A stretch of 64,000 nt of DNA, from positions 1 to 64,000 of the forward strand of contig LADZ01000017.1 in the NCBI GenBank assembly GCA_000961845.1. Reading direction: 5' to 3'. The DNA comes from Flavobacteriales bacterium BRH_c54 (GTDB lineage: Bacteria; Bacteroidota; Bacteroidia; Flavobacteriales_E; Vicingaceae). Below are positions 15,631 to 58,739 of the stretch, in pieces. The notes under the pieces were generated by a model. It ran no database searches. It had not been told where the DNA came from and worked only from the letters and a program-made list of their open reading frames with translations. Position 1 is the first letter of the stretch, and each line of letters opens with the position of its first letter. A program made the translations under genes and the position numbers.

Positions 15631-15707
15631 ATGAAACGACCATGAGTAAAAAGTTGCTCACACAGGAGAATGATTATCATGGGAGTTCCATCTCACCGAT
15701 TTAATAA
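15631..15707 (+). promoter_or_regulatory. Structured 5' leader element, copy 1
   Basis: Outer stem P1: ATGAAAC (15631-15637) with GTTCCAT (15685-15691), one A-C mismatch. Inner stem P2: CCATGA (15640-15645) with TCATGG (15677-15682). Hairpin P3: GAGT (15644-15647) with GCTC (15656-15659), sharing bases with P2. After 3 nt comes the box ACCGATTTAATAA (15695-15707), then 16 nt to the ATG at 15724. The same plan recurs at 21018 and 58157. Confidence 0.65.
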
Positions 15708-15723
15708 CAATAAATATAAACAG

Positions 15724-16329
15724 ATGAAATTACGATATATTATATTTTTATTTTTGATGGGATTGTTTTTTAAACTTAGTGCACAACAACATGAAGTTGG
15801 GGTGGTTATAGGAAGTGGGAAAGCTAATTTAAAAGATGAAATAGGAATCAATACTTCTCAAAACACGTCCAACATTAGTTTTATTAGTAGTGAACTTAGT
15901 TATGGATATACCCCTAAAAACGCATTTTTTAAGTTCAATACAGGCGTAAATTATAGCCATAGAGAATTAACAAAAAACAATGTCGCTATAGATTATATAA
16001 AACTACCATTACAAATAAATTTTGTAATTGGAAACCAAGTTCAACCTATCATTGGTGGGGGTGTTTATTTTGCATCAATTCTAAATAAAAAAAATGAAAA
16101 TAATAATGCGTTAGATTTTTCTCTTTTCCAGCTTGGTGCTTCTTTAAAATTAGGTATTGGCTTTCTTTTTTCTCAGAATATTAAAATTGCTTTAAGTTAT
16201 AATATAAATAAAGATATTATACCTATTTATTACGAAAAAAACGTTGGGAAATTTCAAAATGAAAAATCAATTGTTAGAGGAGTAGACAAATTTTTTTCTA
16301 TTTCAATATATTATGTGATTATTAAATAA
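15724..16329 (+). CDS. Outer-membrane beta-barrel protein
   Basis: Predicted 201-aa barrel with a signal peptide (MKLRYIIFLFLMGLFFKLSAQ) when started at 15724. A longer frame from 15670 exists but would run through the structured leader and bury the signal peptide, so 15724 is chosen. The mature part alternates short amphipathic strands (FKFNTGVNYSHREL, PLQINFVIGNQVQPIIGGGVYF, LGASLKLGIGFLF, IKIALSYNINKD) and ends in a strand with aromatic residues (FFSISIYYVIIK), as in PorT-like/OmpW-like barrels of Bacteroidota. Function is unknown; it is part of the surface-protein run 13985-18585. Confidence 0.65.
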   Translation: MKLRYIIFLFLMGLFFKLSAQQHEVGVVIGSGKANLKDEIGINTSQNTSNISFISSELSYGYTPKNAFFKFNTGVNYSHRELTKNNVAIDYIKLPLQINFVIGNQVQPIIGGGVYFASILNKKNENNNALDFSLFQLGASLKLGIGFLFSQNIKIALSYNINKDIIPIYYEKNVGKFQNEKSIVRGVDKFFSISIYYVIIK

Positions 16330-21017: not shown

Positions 21018-21052
21018 ATGAAATGAATAATTCCATGTAACTGATTTAATAA
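21018..21052 (+). promoter_or_regulatory. Structured 5' leader element, copy 2 (minimal form)
   Basis: ATGAAAT (21018-21024) pairs with ATTCCAT (21030-21036, one A-C mismatch) across a 5-nt loop; the inner helices of the other copies are missing. After 3 nt comes ACTGATTTAATAA (21040-21052), then 15 nt to the ATG at 21068. A possible promoter (TTG at 20966-20968, 17 nt, CAATTTTG at 20986-20993) would start transcription ~20 nt upstream of the stem. Confidence 0.55.
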
Positions 21053-21067
21053 AATAAAAACAAACAC

Positions 21068-21715
21068 ATGAAAAACTTATCATTAGTACTTAATACAGTA
21101 ATGGGGATTGCTATTATTATATTGTTTTACCTACAATTCTCTAGTAAAACTTTAGCTCCTGATGAACAACAAAAAGAAGAAGTTACCACTACAGAAGCAA
21201 TTGAAGAAATGATTGTAAGCAATGATAGCTCTAATTCTAAAATAGGATACATTAATGTAGATTCGCTACAAATAAAATATAAGTTGTACGATGAGTTAAA
21301 ATCTAAATTAGAGAAGAAAGAAAAATCGTACGATGCTCAACTGAAAGCCAAGTCTCAAGATTTTCAAAAGAAAATTGAAGATTTTAGAAAAAAAGCTCCT
21401 AACATGACCCAGTTTGAGGGAGAATTAAAACAAAAAGAGTTGGCACAAGAGGAAGAAAAACTTTATCAAATGAGAGATGAATACGCACAGCGTTTCGAAA
21501 AAGAAATGATAGAATTAAACACTCAACTGTACAAAGCCATAAAAGATTATATCAAACAACACAATGAATTAACTAAATATGATATCATTATTGGGGAATC
21601 TCAAACTAGAAACTTTGTGTTAGATTTTAATAAAGATATTGATATTACCAATGATATAGTAAAAGGATTAAATAAAAAATACAACGAAGATAAAGCTTCT
21701 AAAGCAAAACCATAA
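21068..21715 (+). CDS. Skp/OmpH-like periplasmic chaperone, membrane-anchored
   Basis: A 215-aa protein with one N-terminal membrane segment (residues ~5-24, VLNTVMGIAIIILFYLQF) and no clear cleavage site. An acidic linker precedes the OmpH/Skp core: KIGYINVDSLQIKYKLYDEL is the usual first strand and helix. A long charged coiled coil follows (KSKLEKKEKSYDAQLK through EMIELNTQLYKAIKDYIKQH), with YDIIIGESQTRNFVL as the returning strand. Skp-type chaperones hold unfolded outer-membrane proteins in the periplasm. The uncleaved anchor and the acidic linker differ from plain Skp. It is preceded by structured leader copy 2. Confidence 0.7.
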   Translation: MKNLSLVLNTVMGIAIIILFYLQFSSKTLAPDEQQKEEVTTTEAIEEMIVSNDSSNSKIGYINVDSLQIKYKLYDELKSKLEKKEKSYDAQLKAKSQDFQKKIEDFRKKAPNMTQFEGELKQKELAQEEEKLYQMRDEYAQRFEKEMIELNTQLYKAIKDYIKQHNELTKYDIIIGESQTRNFVLDFNKDIDITNDIVKGLNKKYNEDKASKAKP

Positions 21716-52523: not shown

Positions 52524-55500
52524 ATGTTTGAAAAAATTATTGCTTATTCGCTAAAAAATAAGCTTATTGTACTACTGCTAGTTTTAGCATTAATTCTTGG
52601 AGGAATATATTCCATGAAGCATTTGGCGGTAGATGCAGTTCCTGATATTACCAATAACCAAGTACAAGTGGTTACTTCATCACCAACACTCGCAGCTGAA
52701 GAGGTTGAGCAATTTATTACGCTACCTATAGAAATGGCTGTAGCCAATATTCCTAACGTTGTTGAAGTAAGGAGTATTTCTCGCTATGGGTTGTCGGTTA
52801 TTACTATTGTTTTTGAGGAGGAGGTAGATATTATGCTAGCTCGCCAATTTGTTAATGAGCAACTTACTATTGTTAAAGATGAAATTCCTGAAGCTTTCGG
52901 TTCACCTGAAATGATGCCTATTACTACCGGTTTAGGAGAAATTTACCAGTATATCTTACAGGTTAAGCCAGGTTACGAAAACCAATTTGACATTATGGAA
53001 ATCCGTACCATACAAGATTGGATAGTAAAAAGACAATTAGCCGGAATGCCTGGAATTATCGAAGTAAGCAGCTTTGGTGGTTTGGTAAAACAATATGAAG
53101 TGAGCGTTTTACCTGAAAAATTATTAGCCTATAATGTTACCATTAACGAAGTAGAAATAGCGTTAACTAAAAACAACAGTAACAGTGGAGGAAGCTACAT
53201 TGAATCGGGAGAAAATGCGTTTTATCTGAGAACAGAAGGTAGGGCTTCTAATTTTGAAGATATTGAAAACATCATTATTAAAAATGAAGGTTCCCCCGTT
53301 AGAATTAAAGATGTTGCTAAAGTAGGTTATGGAAGTCCGAAACGTTATGGAGCTATGACTATGGATGGTAAAGGAGAAGTGGTAGGCGGAATTACACTAA
53401 TGTTGAAAGGAGCAAACTCTTCTGAAGCAGTTGAAAATGTGCAAAATCGAATGGAATTGGTGCAAAAAGCATTACCTGAAGGTTTGGAAGTTTATCCTTA
53501 TATAGATAGGTCGGTATTGGTAGGAAAAACCATTAACACGGTTACCAAAAATCTTATTGAAGGTGGACTGATAGTGATTTTTGTATTGGTGTTGTTTTTA
53601 GGGAATTTCCGAGCCGGATTAATTGTTTCTTCGGTTATCCCGCTTTCCATGTTGTTTGCTTTTATCTTGATGCGGTATTTTAATGTCTCTGCTAATTTAA
53701 TGTCGCTTGGTGCAATAGATTTTGGAATTGTGGTGGACGGAGCAGTAATTATTGTAGAAGGTGTATTGCATGTGTTGCATCATAAACATAGAGGAAAAAC
53801 TTTAACAACAGCACAAATGAATACCGAAATTCAGTCTGCTACAGGTCAAATATACCGTTCAGCCGCTTTTGGAGTATTAATTATTTTGGTAGTTTTTGTC
53901 CCCATCTTTTCATTAGAAGGTGTTGAAGGAAAAACCTTTTTACCCATGGCTCAAACTGTAAGTTTCGCTATTTTAGGTTCATTACTGCTTTCCCTAACCT
54001 ATGTTCCAGTGGCTTCAGCTTTGTTTTTAAAGAAAAAAATAAGCGATACAGATACTTTTTCTGATAAATTGGTAATTGCACTTCAAAAACGTTACAAACC
54101 TTTGTTGAGCAAAGTATTAGAACAGCCAAAAAAAGTAATAGCTTTTGCTTTAGCAGGGTTAATAGGAGCAGTTTTGTTATTTGGTACTATGGGTTCTGAA
54201 TTTATTCCCACTTTAGAAGAAGGTGATTTGGCAATGCAAATGGCAATAGAACCAGGGAGTTCTTTAGAGAAAAGTATTGCTACATCAACTCGTGCGGAAA
54301 AGATTCTGAAAGATAATTTTTCTGAAATTAACCATGTGGTTTCCAAGATTGGAACAGCCGAAGTGCCTACAGACCCAATGGCTATTGAGGATGCTGACAT
54401 TATGATTTTGTTAAAAGAAAAAGATGAATGGGAAAATGCCGATAATCGAGAAGATTTAATTGAATTGATGAAAGAAAAACTGAGTGTGATGACAGATGCT
54501 TCTTTTGAGTTTACACAACCCATACAATTACGATTTAATGAATTGATGACAGGAGCTAAAACAGATATTGCCATTCAGATTTTTGGCGAAGATCCTGCAA
54601 CCTTAAAATCTTTAGCAGATAAAATCGCTTTAACTATAAAAGATATAAACGGTGTAGGAGATGTTAAAGTAGAACAAACCGAAGGCTTACGTCAGTTAAG
54701 TGTCGTAATTGACAGAAAAAAATTAGCCATTCATGAGGTAAATGTAGAAGAAGTAAACCAAATCATAAAAGCGGCTTATGCTGGTGTAACAACAGGAGTG
54801 ATTTACGAAAATGAACGTCATTTTGACTTGGTGGTTCGTCTGGATAACAAAAACATCCAACAATTATCCCTCAACAAACTTTTTGTGAAAAATCCTCAGG
54901 GAGAAATGGTTTCGCTAAACCAGTTGGCAAAAGTGGAAGAAAAAATAGCTCCCATGCAAATTTCGCGTGAAGATGCCAAACGTAGAATTACTATTGGCGT
55001 AAATGTTAGAGATAGAGATATTGCTTCTTTGGTAGAAGAACTTCAAGGCACTATTTACAATAATTTAAAGTTACCTGCCGGATATACTATCAAATATGGT
55101 GGTCAGTTCGAAAATTTAGAAAATGCTCTAAATCGATTAATGATTGTTGTTCCGGTAGCATTAATGCTTATCCTGTTTTTGTTGTATTTAGCTTTTGGAA
55201 CATTTAAAGAATCCATCATTATTTTTATGGCAGTTCCTTTGGCTTCCATTGGCGGAATTTTAGCACTTTGGTTAAGAGGTATGCCTTTTAGCATTTCTGC
55301 CGGGATTGGCTTCATTGCTTTATTTGGAGTGGCAGTGCTTAATGGAATTGTATTAGTAAATGAAATTGTAAAATTAAAACAAACCAATATGGACTTAAAA
55401 GATTTAATTATTGAAGCAGCAAATTCCAGGTTACGTCCGGTATTAATGACTGCCTTAGTAGCTTCGTTAGGATTTATTCCTATGGCATTGGCAACTTCTA

Positions 55501-56804
55501 GTGGAGCCGAGGTTCAACGTCCATTGGCAACGGTAGTTATTGGCGGATTAATTACCTCTACATTATTAACTTTATTGGTGCTGCCTGCTTTATACCTTCT
55601 TTTTGATAAGCGTAAAAAAATCAAGATGCCAATTTCAATGGTGCTGATAATCGGATCGTTAGGGACAACAGTTTCAGTAAATGCTCAAGAAAAACAATTG
55701 GATTTGGAGCAACTGGTAACAGCGGCTCAAAAAAATCATGTTAACATAAAACTAAACGAGTTAGAAAAACAAGTCTGGGAAAGCGAAAGTAAAAATGCTT
55801 ATCAAATTCAACCGCTACAAATTGGTATGCAATATGGACAAATTAATGCTGAGTTGATGGATACTTATTGGGAGGTGATGCAAGATTTTGGAACTCCATG
55901 GACGATAAAAAGAAGGAAGAATGCTGCCAAATTGGGCATTGATTTTACTGAACAAAAAGCACAAACTATCCAACAAGAAATTCGGTATAACATTACCGCT
56001 GCATATTATAATTGGTTGTATTACAATAAGGCTTATGAATTACTCAGCGAGGTAAAAACGGCCATACTTCGAGCTGAGAAAAGTTTAAAATTAAAGTTAG
56101 AAGCAGGAGAAATTAGTCATACTGATTTTTTAATGGTTCAGCAGTTGAATAATGCTGTAAAGCAAAAAATGCAGCAATATTATTCAGGTAAAAACCAACA
56201 AGAGCAAGAATTATTATTTTTCTCTGGTTTAGATGGAACGATTAAAGATACACTTTATGAGAAAATTACTTTTCAGGCAGCACCAACACTAAGTACAAGT
56301 TTGTATGCTGAAAATCAGCTTAAAATTGCTCGATTAGAGCAACAACAAAAAGTGATAAAGTCAGACTTTCAACCTACTTTTCAGGCAGGGTATTTTCGCC
56401 AGAGTTTAAATCATGTTCAAGGATTTCAAGGGTTTAAAGCGGGGTTGGCTATTCCTTTGGTTTTTGGAGGAAAACGCAATGAGTTAGCAAAAAATCGTTT
56501 ACAAATAAAAGCTGCTAAAACAGAAAATGACAACCTAAAAAAACTGTTGGAAAGTGAGTTGCAAACACTTACTAAAAACATTGAGTTTATGCAGCAAAAT
56601 GTGGGCGACAATCAGCAATATTTTGATGATACACTTTTAGGCTTACAGCAGTTGCAACAACAATTGACTGTTGGAGAAATTAATCACTACGAATTTGTTC
56701 AGCTTACCAATATTATTATTGAAGGAGCTTTAAGCGAAATGGAAATGATTAACAGCTTTAATCAGGCAGTTATAAAACATCAATTTTTAACAACAACTAA
56801 ATAA
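52524..56804 (+). CDS. CusA/CzcA-type heavy-metal RND pump fused to a TolC-like channel
   Basis: A 1426-aa fusion. Residues 1-~1030 are a heavy-metal-type RND permease: [45 protein letters not shown], the proton-relay helix [29 protein letters not shown], and TM11-12 [32 protein letters not shown]. Basic DKRKKIK precedes a second signal-like segment ([20 protein letters not shown], residues 1035-1054) with an A-x-A-like site. Then comes an OEP/TolC domain to the end ([63 protein letters not shown]). The fusion is known in Bacteroidota. It exports Cu/Ag or Zn/Co/Cd; the ion is not decidable here. Confidence 0.93.
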   Translation: [1426 protein letters not shown]

Positions 56805-56813
56805 GAAAAGTTT

Positions 56814-57662
56814 ATGAAAAATTTAATATACATCACCGTTGCCATGCTAATAGTTGCATGTGGTGATAACAAAACAAAAGAAACTACAACAGCACCGGAA
56901 GAAACAGTTGTGGAAACCACCGAAAAAATGGTAGTACCTACCAATAAAAATATTGAATGTTTCGGAACGATAGATGTTCCGCCATCGGCTATTTATGAGG
57001 TTTATACTAAAGCTGAAGGGTTTATTGCAAAATTAAATTTGTTGGAAGGTGAGCACGTAGAAAAAGGACAAGTGTTAGCAGAAATTGAATCACCGGAGTT
57101 TGCTCAGTGGCAAAAAGAATTGTTATCAGCAAAAGCAAATTATGATTGGCAACAACAGCATTTTGATAGAAACAAGCAATTGTATGAAAACAAAGCCATT
57201 TCTGATAAAGAATTTCAGCAAATAGAAAAAGATTATTTATTGGCAAAATCAACTTATCAAGGTTGGAAGGATCAATTAACAGCTATTGGATTTTCAGAAA
57301 ATCAATTAATTAATAATAGCAATGTTAAATTACAAATAAGAAGTATTGCCCACGGAACGGTAGTGAAAATAAATACTAAAAACGGTGCGAAAATTTCTGC
57401 TGATACACATTTGTTTACCATATTAGATAAATCACATTTACATATTGAAATGAAAATAGCAGCTGCTGATATTCAAGGTGTAAAAATTAATCAATCCTTC
57501 TTTTTATTACATAACCAAGATACTATTAAAGGGCATGTTTATTTAATTAATGATTTAATTAATGAAGATAATACCGTTAGGGTTCATGGGCATTTTGATG
57601 ATGAAAAAGATGAGGAAAAATTAATTGTTGGTCAGCAGTTTTTTGTAGAGGTTTTGAAATAA
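56814..57662 (+). CDS. Heavy-metal efflux periplasmic adaptor (CusB/CzcB-like lipoprotein)
   Basis: A 282-aa membrane-fusion lipoprotein (signal ending MLIVACGDNK, Cys near 16). Lipoyl half: AEGFIAKLNLLEGEHVEKGQVLAEIESPEFAQWQKELL, a short helical hairpin, and the returning half (LQIRSIAHGTVVKINTKNGAKIS), then a beta-barrel (LHIEMKIAAADIQGVKINQSFFL). It is shorter than E. coli CusB and lacks N-terminal Met metal-binding extensions. It is the last gene of the metal efflux operon, 9 bp after the pump-TolC fusion, closed by a strong terminator. Confidence 0.88.
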   Translation: MKNLIYITVAMLIVACGDNKTKETTTAPEETVVETTEKMVVPTNKNIECFGTIDVPPSAIYEVYTKAEGFIAKLNLLEGEHVEKGQVLAEIESPEFAQWQKELLSAKANYDWQQQHFDRNKQLYENKAISDKEFQQIEKDYLLAKSTYQGWKDQLTAIGFSENQLINNSNVKLQIRSIAHGTVVKINTKNGAKISADTHLFTILDKSHLHIEMKIAAADIQGVKINQSFFLLHNQDTIKGHVYLINDLINEDNTVRVHGHFDDEKDEEKLIVGQQFFVEVLK

Positions 57663-58156: not shown

Positions 58157-58232
58157 ATGAAATAGCCATGTGCAAAAGCACACAACCAGTGATGAAGATA
58201 ACATGGTATATTTCATATGACCGATTTAATAA
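58157..58232 (+). promoter_or_regulatory. Structured 5' leader element, copy 3
   Basis: P1: ATGAAATA (58157-58164) pairs perfectly with TATTTCAT (58209-58216). P2: CCATG (58166-58170) with CATGG (58202-58206). P3: TGTGC (58169-58173), loop AAAA, GCACA (58178-58182), sharing two bases with P2. After 3 nt the box ACCGATTTAATAA (58220-58232) and 15 nt to the ATG at 58248. The stems keep pairing with changed bases compared with copy 1, and the transcript should begin at P1. Confidence 0.7.
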
Positions 58233-58247
58233 AATAAATAGCTATAT

Positions 58248-58739
58248 ATGAAGATCTCCTTTAAGTCAATTAAAAAATCGGATTTAACAGAAGTAACGGC
58301 TGTCTATAATTATTATGTAGAAAATTCTACAGCAACTTTTCATTTACAAGCTGTTACCGAGCAGGAGATGGAGCAAACGCTTTGTTTAGAACATCCAATT
58401 TATCAATCTTTTGTTATTCTATCTGATGATAAAATTGCTGGTTTTTGTTATTTAGGGCAGTTTCGTAAAAAAGAAGCTTACGATATTTCTGTCGAAGTAA
58501 CCTTGTATATAAAGCCAGAATTTACCGGTAAACAAATTGGTGTTGAGGTTTTATCTTTTATGGAAAAAACGGCTAAAAACTTAGGATTAAAAAATCTAGT
58601 AGGGGTAATTACCTCGGAAAATGTAGGAAGTTTAAAATTATTTGAACGTTGCGGCTATTTTAAATGCGGACATCTTAAAAATATAGGAATTAAATTTGGC
58701 AGAGCGTTGGATGTGATTTCTTATCAGAAAGAGATTTGA
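58248..58739 (+). CDS. GNAT acetyltransferase (phosphinothricin-acetyltransferase-like)
   Basis: A 163-aa N-acetyltransferase. N-terminal KKSDLTEVTAVYNYYVENSTATFHLQ matches the 'i--IYN--v--s-atf' start of the PAT/YncA-like GNAT group. VTLYIKPEFTGKQIGVEVLSFMEKTA holds the acetyl-CoA loop (FTGKQIG), and ITSENVGSLKLFERCGYFKCGHLKNIGIKFG matches the end of the fold. YncA-like enzymes acetylate methionine derivatives or phosphinothricin-like amines; the substrate is not determined. It is preceded by its own promoter and by structured leader copy 3. Confidence 0.85.
   Translation: MKISFKSIKKSDLTEVTAVYNYYVENSTATFHLQAVTEQEMEQTLCLEHPIYQSFVILSDDKIAGFCYLGQFRKKEAYDISVEVTLYIKPEFTGKQIGVEVLSFMEKTAKNLGLKNLVGVITSENVGSLKLFERCGYFKCGHLKNIGIKFGRALDVISYQKEI

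Follow-up and report, generated by a model that had tools for sequence, protein, structure and literature searches.

A non-autonomous mobile hairpin cassette with an internal guide-like triplet at start codons of Flavobacteriales bacterium BRH_c54

Among the insertion sequences of the IS200/IS605 group, IS608 inserts 3' of TTAC, a site chosen by a tetranucleotide guide at the foot of a hairpin (PMC5934647). Repetitive extragenic palindromes (REPs) use GTAG instead, and in E. coli they require conserved mismatches in the stem (PMC8266576). Subclass 2.6 of the Y1 transposases is found mostly in Bacteroidetes and is flanked by 'atypical secondary structures' (PMC6006769), so that unusual partners exist in this phylum; the Y1 proteins that we found carry palindromes other than the element described here. 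This element is a short hairpin cassette, first noticed as three leader-like copies in 64,000 nucleotides of Flavobacteriales bacterium BRH_c54 (the window: bases 1-64000 of contig 4 of a 2.92-Mb genome; GenBank LADZ01000017.1). It resembles IS200/IS605 (IS608, ISDra2) and its palindrome-associated derivatives in lying 3' of a short fixed target in a strand-specific orientation, and it resembles REPs and bacterial interspersed mosaic elements (BIMEs) with their transposase TnpA_REP (RAYT) in forming many short intergenic hairpins per genome, including tandem arrays.

Cassettes in the window and their empty sites

The earlier note had described one leader plan shared by three unrelated genes, and all three copies were found where it had put them. 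ATGAAA starts at 15631, 21018 and 58157, the guide and conserved box (TTYCAT-NNN-ACYGATTTAATAA) at 15686, 21031 and 58211, and the genes have their ATG at 15724, 21068 and 58248. Copy 3 matches the covariance model described below from 58157 to 58253 (E 1.5e-11), and copy 1 starts 14 bp downstream of the stop codon of the preceding gene. The cassettes and their parts are as follows.

58157..58247, plus strand: copy 3, complete mobile cassette of 91 bp, 5' of the GNAT start codon at 58248 (sequence, covariance-model match, empty congener sites)
58157..58164, plus strand: copy 3, 5' strand of P1, ATGAAATA, the cassette 5' end, same as the target ATGAA (sequence, alignment)
58166..58170, plus strand: copy 3, 5' strand of P2, CCATG, partner CATGG at 58202-58206 (sequence and fold)
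58169..58182, plus strand: copy 3, inner hairpin P3, TGTGC-AAAA-GCACA, with two bases common with P2 (sequence, alignment pairs)
58211..58219, plus strand: copy 3, guide TTTCAT-ATG, complementary to the 5' ATGAAA and to TATATGAAG at the start of the gene (sequence, triplet complementarity)
58220..58232, plus strand: copy 3, conserved box ACCGATTTAATAA, the linker from the guide to the cassette 3' end (sequence, alignment)
58245..58247, plus strand: copy 3, terminal triplet TAT, partner of guide triplet ATG, 2/3 matched
15631..15723, plus strand: copy 1, complete cassette of 93 bp, 5' of the beta-barrel gene start at 15724 (covariance model E 8.2e-12)
15686..15694, plus strand: copy 1, guide TTCCAT-CTC, partner CAG at 15721-15723
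21018..21067, plus strand: copy 2, minimal cassette of 50 bp without inner hairpin, 5' of the OmpH-like gene start at 21068 (covariance model E 3e-5)
21031..21039, plus strand: copy 2, guide TTCCAT-GTA, partner CAC at 21065-21067; the triplet is GTG in the orthologous copy of congener G002

Orthologous sites in congeners are empty, and comparison with them places a cassette of 50 to 93 bp at the very point where the native upstream sequence meets the start codon. Precise junctions were obtained for lepA, nadA, cmk and a chalcone-isomerase-like gene. With ^ marking the junction, cmk reads GACAAACAAAGCGAAGA^ATGAAAAAAATT in G002 versus GAAGA^ATGAAACGACC...CAACAG^ATGAAAAAAATT here, where several cassettes stand in a row; nadA reads ACAAGAA^ATGAACGC in G004 versus ACAAGAA^ATGAAACGACC...AAACAG^ATGAACAC here; and lepA reads AAAGGT^ATGAAGAAC in G005 versus ATAGGT^ATGAAACGACC...GACAG^ATGAAAAAC here. 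The genes bshB1, gapdh and pyrF likewise carry a cassette in BRH_c54 and are unoccupied in congeners. Within the window, copy 3 is missing from G004, G002 and G003, and copy 2 is missing from G004 and common to G002; for copy 1 the comparison had no close ortholog to draw on. The first bases of the cassette are ATGAAA and its last base directly precedes the ATGAA of the gene, and because cassette and target both have ATGAA, the breakpoint can be placed only within these five bases. The box TTACTTTTG upstream of copy 3, which had been taken to set the transcription start at the first base of P1, turned out to belong to the promoter of the gene itself and not to the element, since the same box occurs in element-free congeners: G004 and G002 retain TACTTTTG / TATTTTTG a few bases upstream of the GNAT ATG.

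Tandem arrays were found as well, with a period of 91 bp in another congener (G003:C104) and of 93 bp in genome G295, and the junctions inside them read ...CAG^ATGAAA..., as they do at genes. The 93-bp-period arrays of G295 (L327-L353) are accompanied by a second related unit, in which CAGGCTATCTGACC replaces the guide, beside CCCGATTTTTCTTCGGG hairpins. Cassettes usually measure about 80 to 95 bp, within a full range of 50 to about 130 bp; L072 and L083 have a larger inner hairpin and reach 136 and 133 nt counting the first bases of the gene, which for L083 may be a HigA-like antitoxin. With empty sites, species-specific occupancy and tandem arrays, one of the two readings that had been offered at the outset, a dispersed mobile leader cassette, is borne out, and the leaders of the window are copies of a non-autonomous mobile hairpin cassette.

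Copy number, placement and spread

The exact pattern ATGAAAN{3,70}TTYCATNNNACYGATTTAATAA occurs 6 times in the whole genome versus 0 times for a reversed control, so the shared plan of the three copies is not due to chance; the 13-nt box alone, allowing 2 mismatches, is near chance in the window (18 found, 13.6 expected). A covariance model made from 40 copies, collected after a mismatch search with the 3' half, retrieved 42 copies genome-wide at E<1e-3 and, with the cutoff relaxed to an E of 1, 53. The search of relatives yielded further copies in other Bacteroidia: 62 of 395 sampled genomes, complete single-contig ones included, have matches at E<1e-3, and a sample of the phylum gave 15 positive genomes, 2 of them outside Bacteroidia, all with E-values that rest on a short calibration. 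The named records with cassettes include Vicingaceae, Salinivirgaceae and other Bacteroidota metagenome-assembled genomes. Like the Bacteroidota leader RNAs of Rfam (e.g. Flavo-1) and riboswitches, the cassette is a structured sequence directly upstream of start codons; unlike them, it gave no covariance match, as no Rfam family reached its gathering threshold and none was credible at permissive E-values, which makes it a structured family new to Rfam. A description of the element was not found in the open-access literature, subscription papers lying outside that search. As for viral spread, the strict pattern occurs in 118 contigs of IMG/VR, mostly by chance, and only L392 resembles a minimal copy. 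This putative viral contig holds ATGAAACGCATGTTCCATCTGAC...AAACAGATGAAA before an open frame of 102 codons.

Placement at gene starts is nearly complete in the genome itself, where 29 of the 30 copies with fetched flanks stand at the start of an open reading frame (ORF). The 335 ATGAA sites of the window divide into 287 genic ones, 25 at gene starts and 23 that are intergenic and away from starts, so that under a null of survival outside genes only about half of the copies would be expected at starts. The binomial chance of 29/30 is then roughly 1e-7, for a null that is rough (a single window, simple ORF calls) and by which targeting and selective survival are not separable.

The internal guide and the stem

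The exactly 3 nt that follow TTYCAT had been listed as part of a constant plan; they are no mere spacer, being complementary to the 3 nt that precede the ATG of the gene. The pairs of guide triplet and end triplet that we observed are CTG/CAG, ATG/CAT, GTG/CAC, AAG/CTT, TTG/CAA and ACG/CGT. In 40 copies the two triplets match at 107 of their 120 positions, against a mean of 79.7 and a maximum of 93 in 20000 shuffles, which leave the kinship among copies in place, and in the alignment the most variable pair of this triplet helix is CG in 18, AU in 14, GC in 4 and UA in 1. In a second set that reaches other genera, the variable base matches in 109 of 115 copies (shuffled mean 49, maximum 64, again with kinship left in place); this set was selected by pattern, with complementarity at the variable base no selection criterion. 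We attribute the covariation of the triplet with the cassette end to end recognition. Taken as a whole, RTTNCAT-NNN is complementary to the 5' end of the cassette (ATGAAAY), to its 3' end (NNN) and, as an alternative to the cassette's own ATGAAA, to that of the gene, and the conserved TTNCAT-NNN may accordingly be an internal guide by which both ends and target are recognised.

P1 had been said to keep its pairing while bases change. This holds for position 7, which covaries (TA 75, CG 36), and not for the helix throughout, as position 4 is a conserved non-Watson-Crick position: among 117 strict copies the A of ATGAAA stands opposite C 103 times and opposite A 14 times, copy 3 with TTTCAT being an exception. 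The A.C of the sense strand is a T.G on the antisense strand. Positions 8-9 are often G.A/A.G mismatches, and the pairs of helix 2 are poorly supported (52.5% of cells in alignment A2, partly through misalignment between subfamilies).

These properties bear on the other reading of the earlier note, a regulated leader or switch, which is not supported. A cis-regulatory leader RNA (riboswitch, thermometer or protein-binding) would let P1 alternate with a start-codon hairpin, TTNCATNNN/NNNATGAAA, exposing or hiding the start codon. The required pairing does exist in RNA terms, copies stand at starts in sense orientation and in each window copy the tail is able to cover the ATG in a fold of -2.7 to -5.9 kcal/mol; however, these tail folds do not surpass those of shuffles (z -0.45 to -0.63), most whole leaders fold unremarkably with copy 3 alone standing out, and the conserved A.C at position 4 weakens P1 as RNA. 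Moreover, the downstream genes (lepA, bshB1, gapdh, pyrF, cmk, nadA, purA, ompH-like and others) have no common function, congeners do not share the same occupied sites, and tandem arrays and precise empty sites are characteristic of mobile DNA, so that we consider a leader RNA highly improbable. When both strands were folded as DNA, P1 of copy 1 formed on the antisense strand only, single-copy folds being weak either way. A cassette within a 5' untranslated region (UTR) might influence translation, and its guide might mask a start codon; a common regulatory role for the cassettes is unlikely.

A short conserved upstream ORF was also considered, as in the first copies the box reads FHxTDLIK followed by a stop in one frame, the entire L006 cassette reads MKRAMRKPLTQRKMIIGEFHLTDLIK up to a stop, and six copies show seemingly synonymous or conservative changes at TTY, NTG and ACY. 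The frame is nevertheless broken in window copies 1-3 and in L005, and an ORF is missing from the minimal copy. Across other genera, the tail GACCTTTTAAAAACAAATTAT loses the frame while the guide complementarity stays, by which this candidate was ruled out; we give it practically no credence.

The probable mover and its relatives

We propose that the cassette is a guide-bearing, non-autonomous hairpin that inserts 5' of ATGAA and is probably moved in trans by a transposase of the HUH (Y1-type) class. It inserts directly 5' of ATGAA, in the BRH_c54 genome almost always at a gene's start codon, in one orientation and duplicating no target beyond the common ATGAA. The guide would align the two cassette ends, 5' ATGAAAY and 3' NNN, and could exchange the cassette's own ATGAAA for that of the target, whereby ends and target would both be recognised. 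On the antisense strand, presumably the active one, the order is TTTCAT^, NNN, linker, NNN'ATG(G/T)AA, hairpin, TTTCAT^, that is, a target, a short linker, a guide where the hairpin has its 5' foot, the hairpin, and a right end TTTCAT^ with the sequence of the target. This IS200/IS605- or REP-like layout is why an HUH (Y1-type) single-strand transposase seems to us the most likely mover; we are confident that the cassette is mobile and much less so of the enzyme class. The cassette brings its own A/T-rich translation-start region AATAAATATAAACAG, restores ATGAA and becomes the 5' UTR of the gene; because it does so, insertion at a start would be tolerated and may be neutral.

Further likeness to IS200/IS605 lies in the precise empty site without target duplication (four genes and window copies 2 and 3), in a target-complementary guide at the 5' foot of the hairpin, although the pairing is longer in the cassette than with tetranucleotide guides (PMC5934647), and in the right end TTTCAT that equals the target within this layout. 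Unlike IS200/IS605, the cassette was found without tnpA, tnpB or a partner insertion sequence, and it targets the complement of ATGAA, in other words gene starts.

Several observations weigh against this proposal. All copies have a single hairpin between their ends, whereas IS200/IS605 has a subterminal hairpin at each end. The guide forms a linear pairing of 9 to 10 bp that extends across the junction, while the guide of IS608 pairs through 4 nt and in a partly crossed manner. In G295, with its long arrays, a good share of copies is not at gene starts; as such copies are commoner there, the target is ATGAA and not the start codon as such. A PF01797 search of 60 relatives and 12 copy-rich genomes, in which the flanks of matches were read, returned loci that carry other repeats or none of the cassette ends, and G245, a 100% complete genome with 10 strict copies, had no PF01797 match. 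No Y1 gene was linked to the cassette in the genus and 11 copy-rich genomes, the sole, chance-like exception being L289, and no autonomous ORF-bearing copy was found with a strict right-end pattern in 18 genomes or among 50 fetched right ends. At L289 (G295:C32), two tandem cassettes follow an IS200-type Y1 gene at a distance of about 120 bp downstream, at an intergenic non-start site; they are oriented as expected for the end of an insertion sequence, yet their adjacency to the gene is probably chance.

A mobile cassette moved by a non-HUH agent, such as a tyrosine or serine recombinase or an RNA/reverse-transcriptase route, with the long linear guide as a new recognition mode, is a possible though rather unlikely alternative. 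Besides the lack of a linked Y1 gene, it is favored by a guide that pairs on both sides of the junction and by the near-exclusive sense placement at starts in the BRH_c54 genome; on the other side, positive evidence for any other enzyme is absent, and the cassette shows neither inverted terminal repeats nor target duplication, nor attC core boxes in class B and C copies. It thus differs from a DDE-type miniature inverted-repeat transposable element, as the ends ATGAAAY... and ...NNN do not form inverted repeats and only ATGAA is common, with no duplicated target outside, and from an integron attC (core boxes RYYYAAC / GTTRRRY), as AAC/GTT is found in class A only, the stem strands of class B and C copies being ATGAAATA/TATTCCAT and ATGAAATGC/GCATTCCAT.

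The cassette might also be a REP that belongs to TnpA_REP-like genes of the genus itself, such as that at G000:C69:3002. REPs share with it the conserved stem mismatches (in the cassette the position-4 non-pair and G.A at positions 8-9). However, the TnpA_REP-like genes are flanked by different palindromes (GTTTGTAGCTACAAGCTACAAAC and others), their fetched flanks contain no cassette, and the hairpin foot has no GTAG/GGAG tetranucleotide, reading NNN-ATG(G/T)AA-Y on the antisense strand, which makes this origin quite unlikely. Also unlike REPs, which are scattered between genes, the cassettes stand at start codons in sense, with no alternating orientation and no linked TnpA_REP gene. The RAYT-like gene L188 (G000:C69:2927-3475), like L190-L192 and L197, is kept across the genus with its own palindromes GTTTGTAGCTACAAGCTACAAAC downstream, unlinked to the cassette.

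Elsewhere in the window, a 1426-aa ORF (52524-56804, plus strand) fuses, as read from its translation, a CusA-like RND pump for heavy-metal efflux to an outer-membrane domain of TolC type and is followed at 56814 by what reads as an efflux periplasmic adaptor.

Tentatively, and short of an even expectation, the cassette may represent a new kind of mobile element across Bacteroidota, for which start codons are a safe harbour, in which an internal guide of about 10 nt splints the ends and recognises the target by swapping the cassette's ATGAAA for that of the gene, and which replaces the leader of the gene by means of an enzyme not yet known. Landing on start codons with a ready-made leader is an unusual answer to the problem of inserting without harm, by which the 5' UTRs of housekeeping genes are repeatedly rewired in a species-specific way, and the covariation of the guide triplet offers a testable code for end recognition. 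Being short and non-coding, and with each copy resembling a leader, the cassette has probably been overlooked in annotation, and it may mislead riboswitch searches in Bacteroidota.
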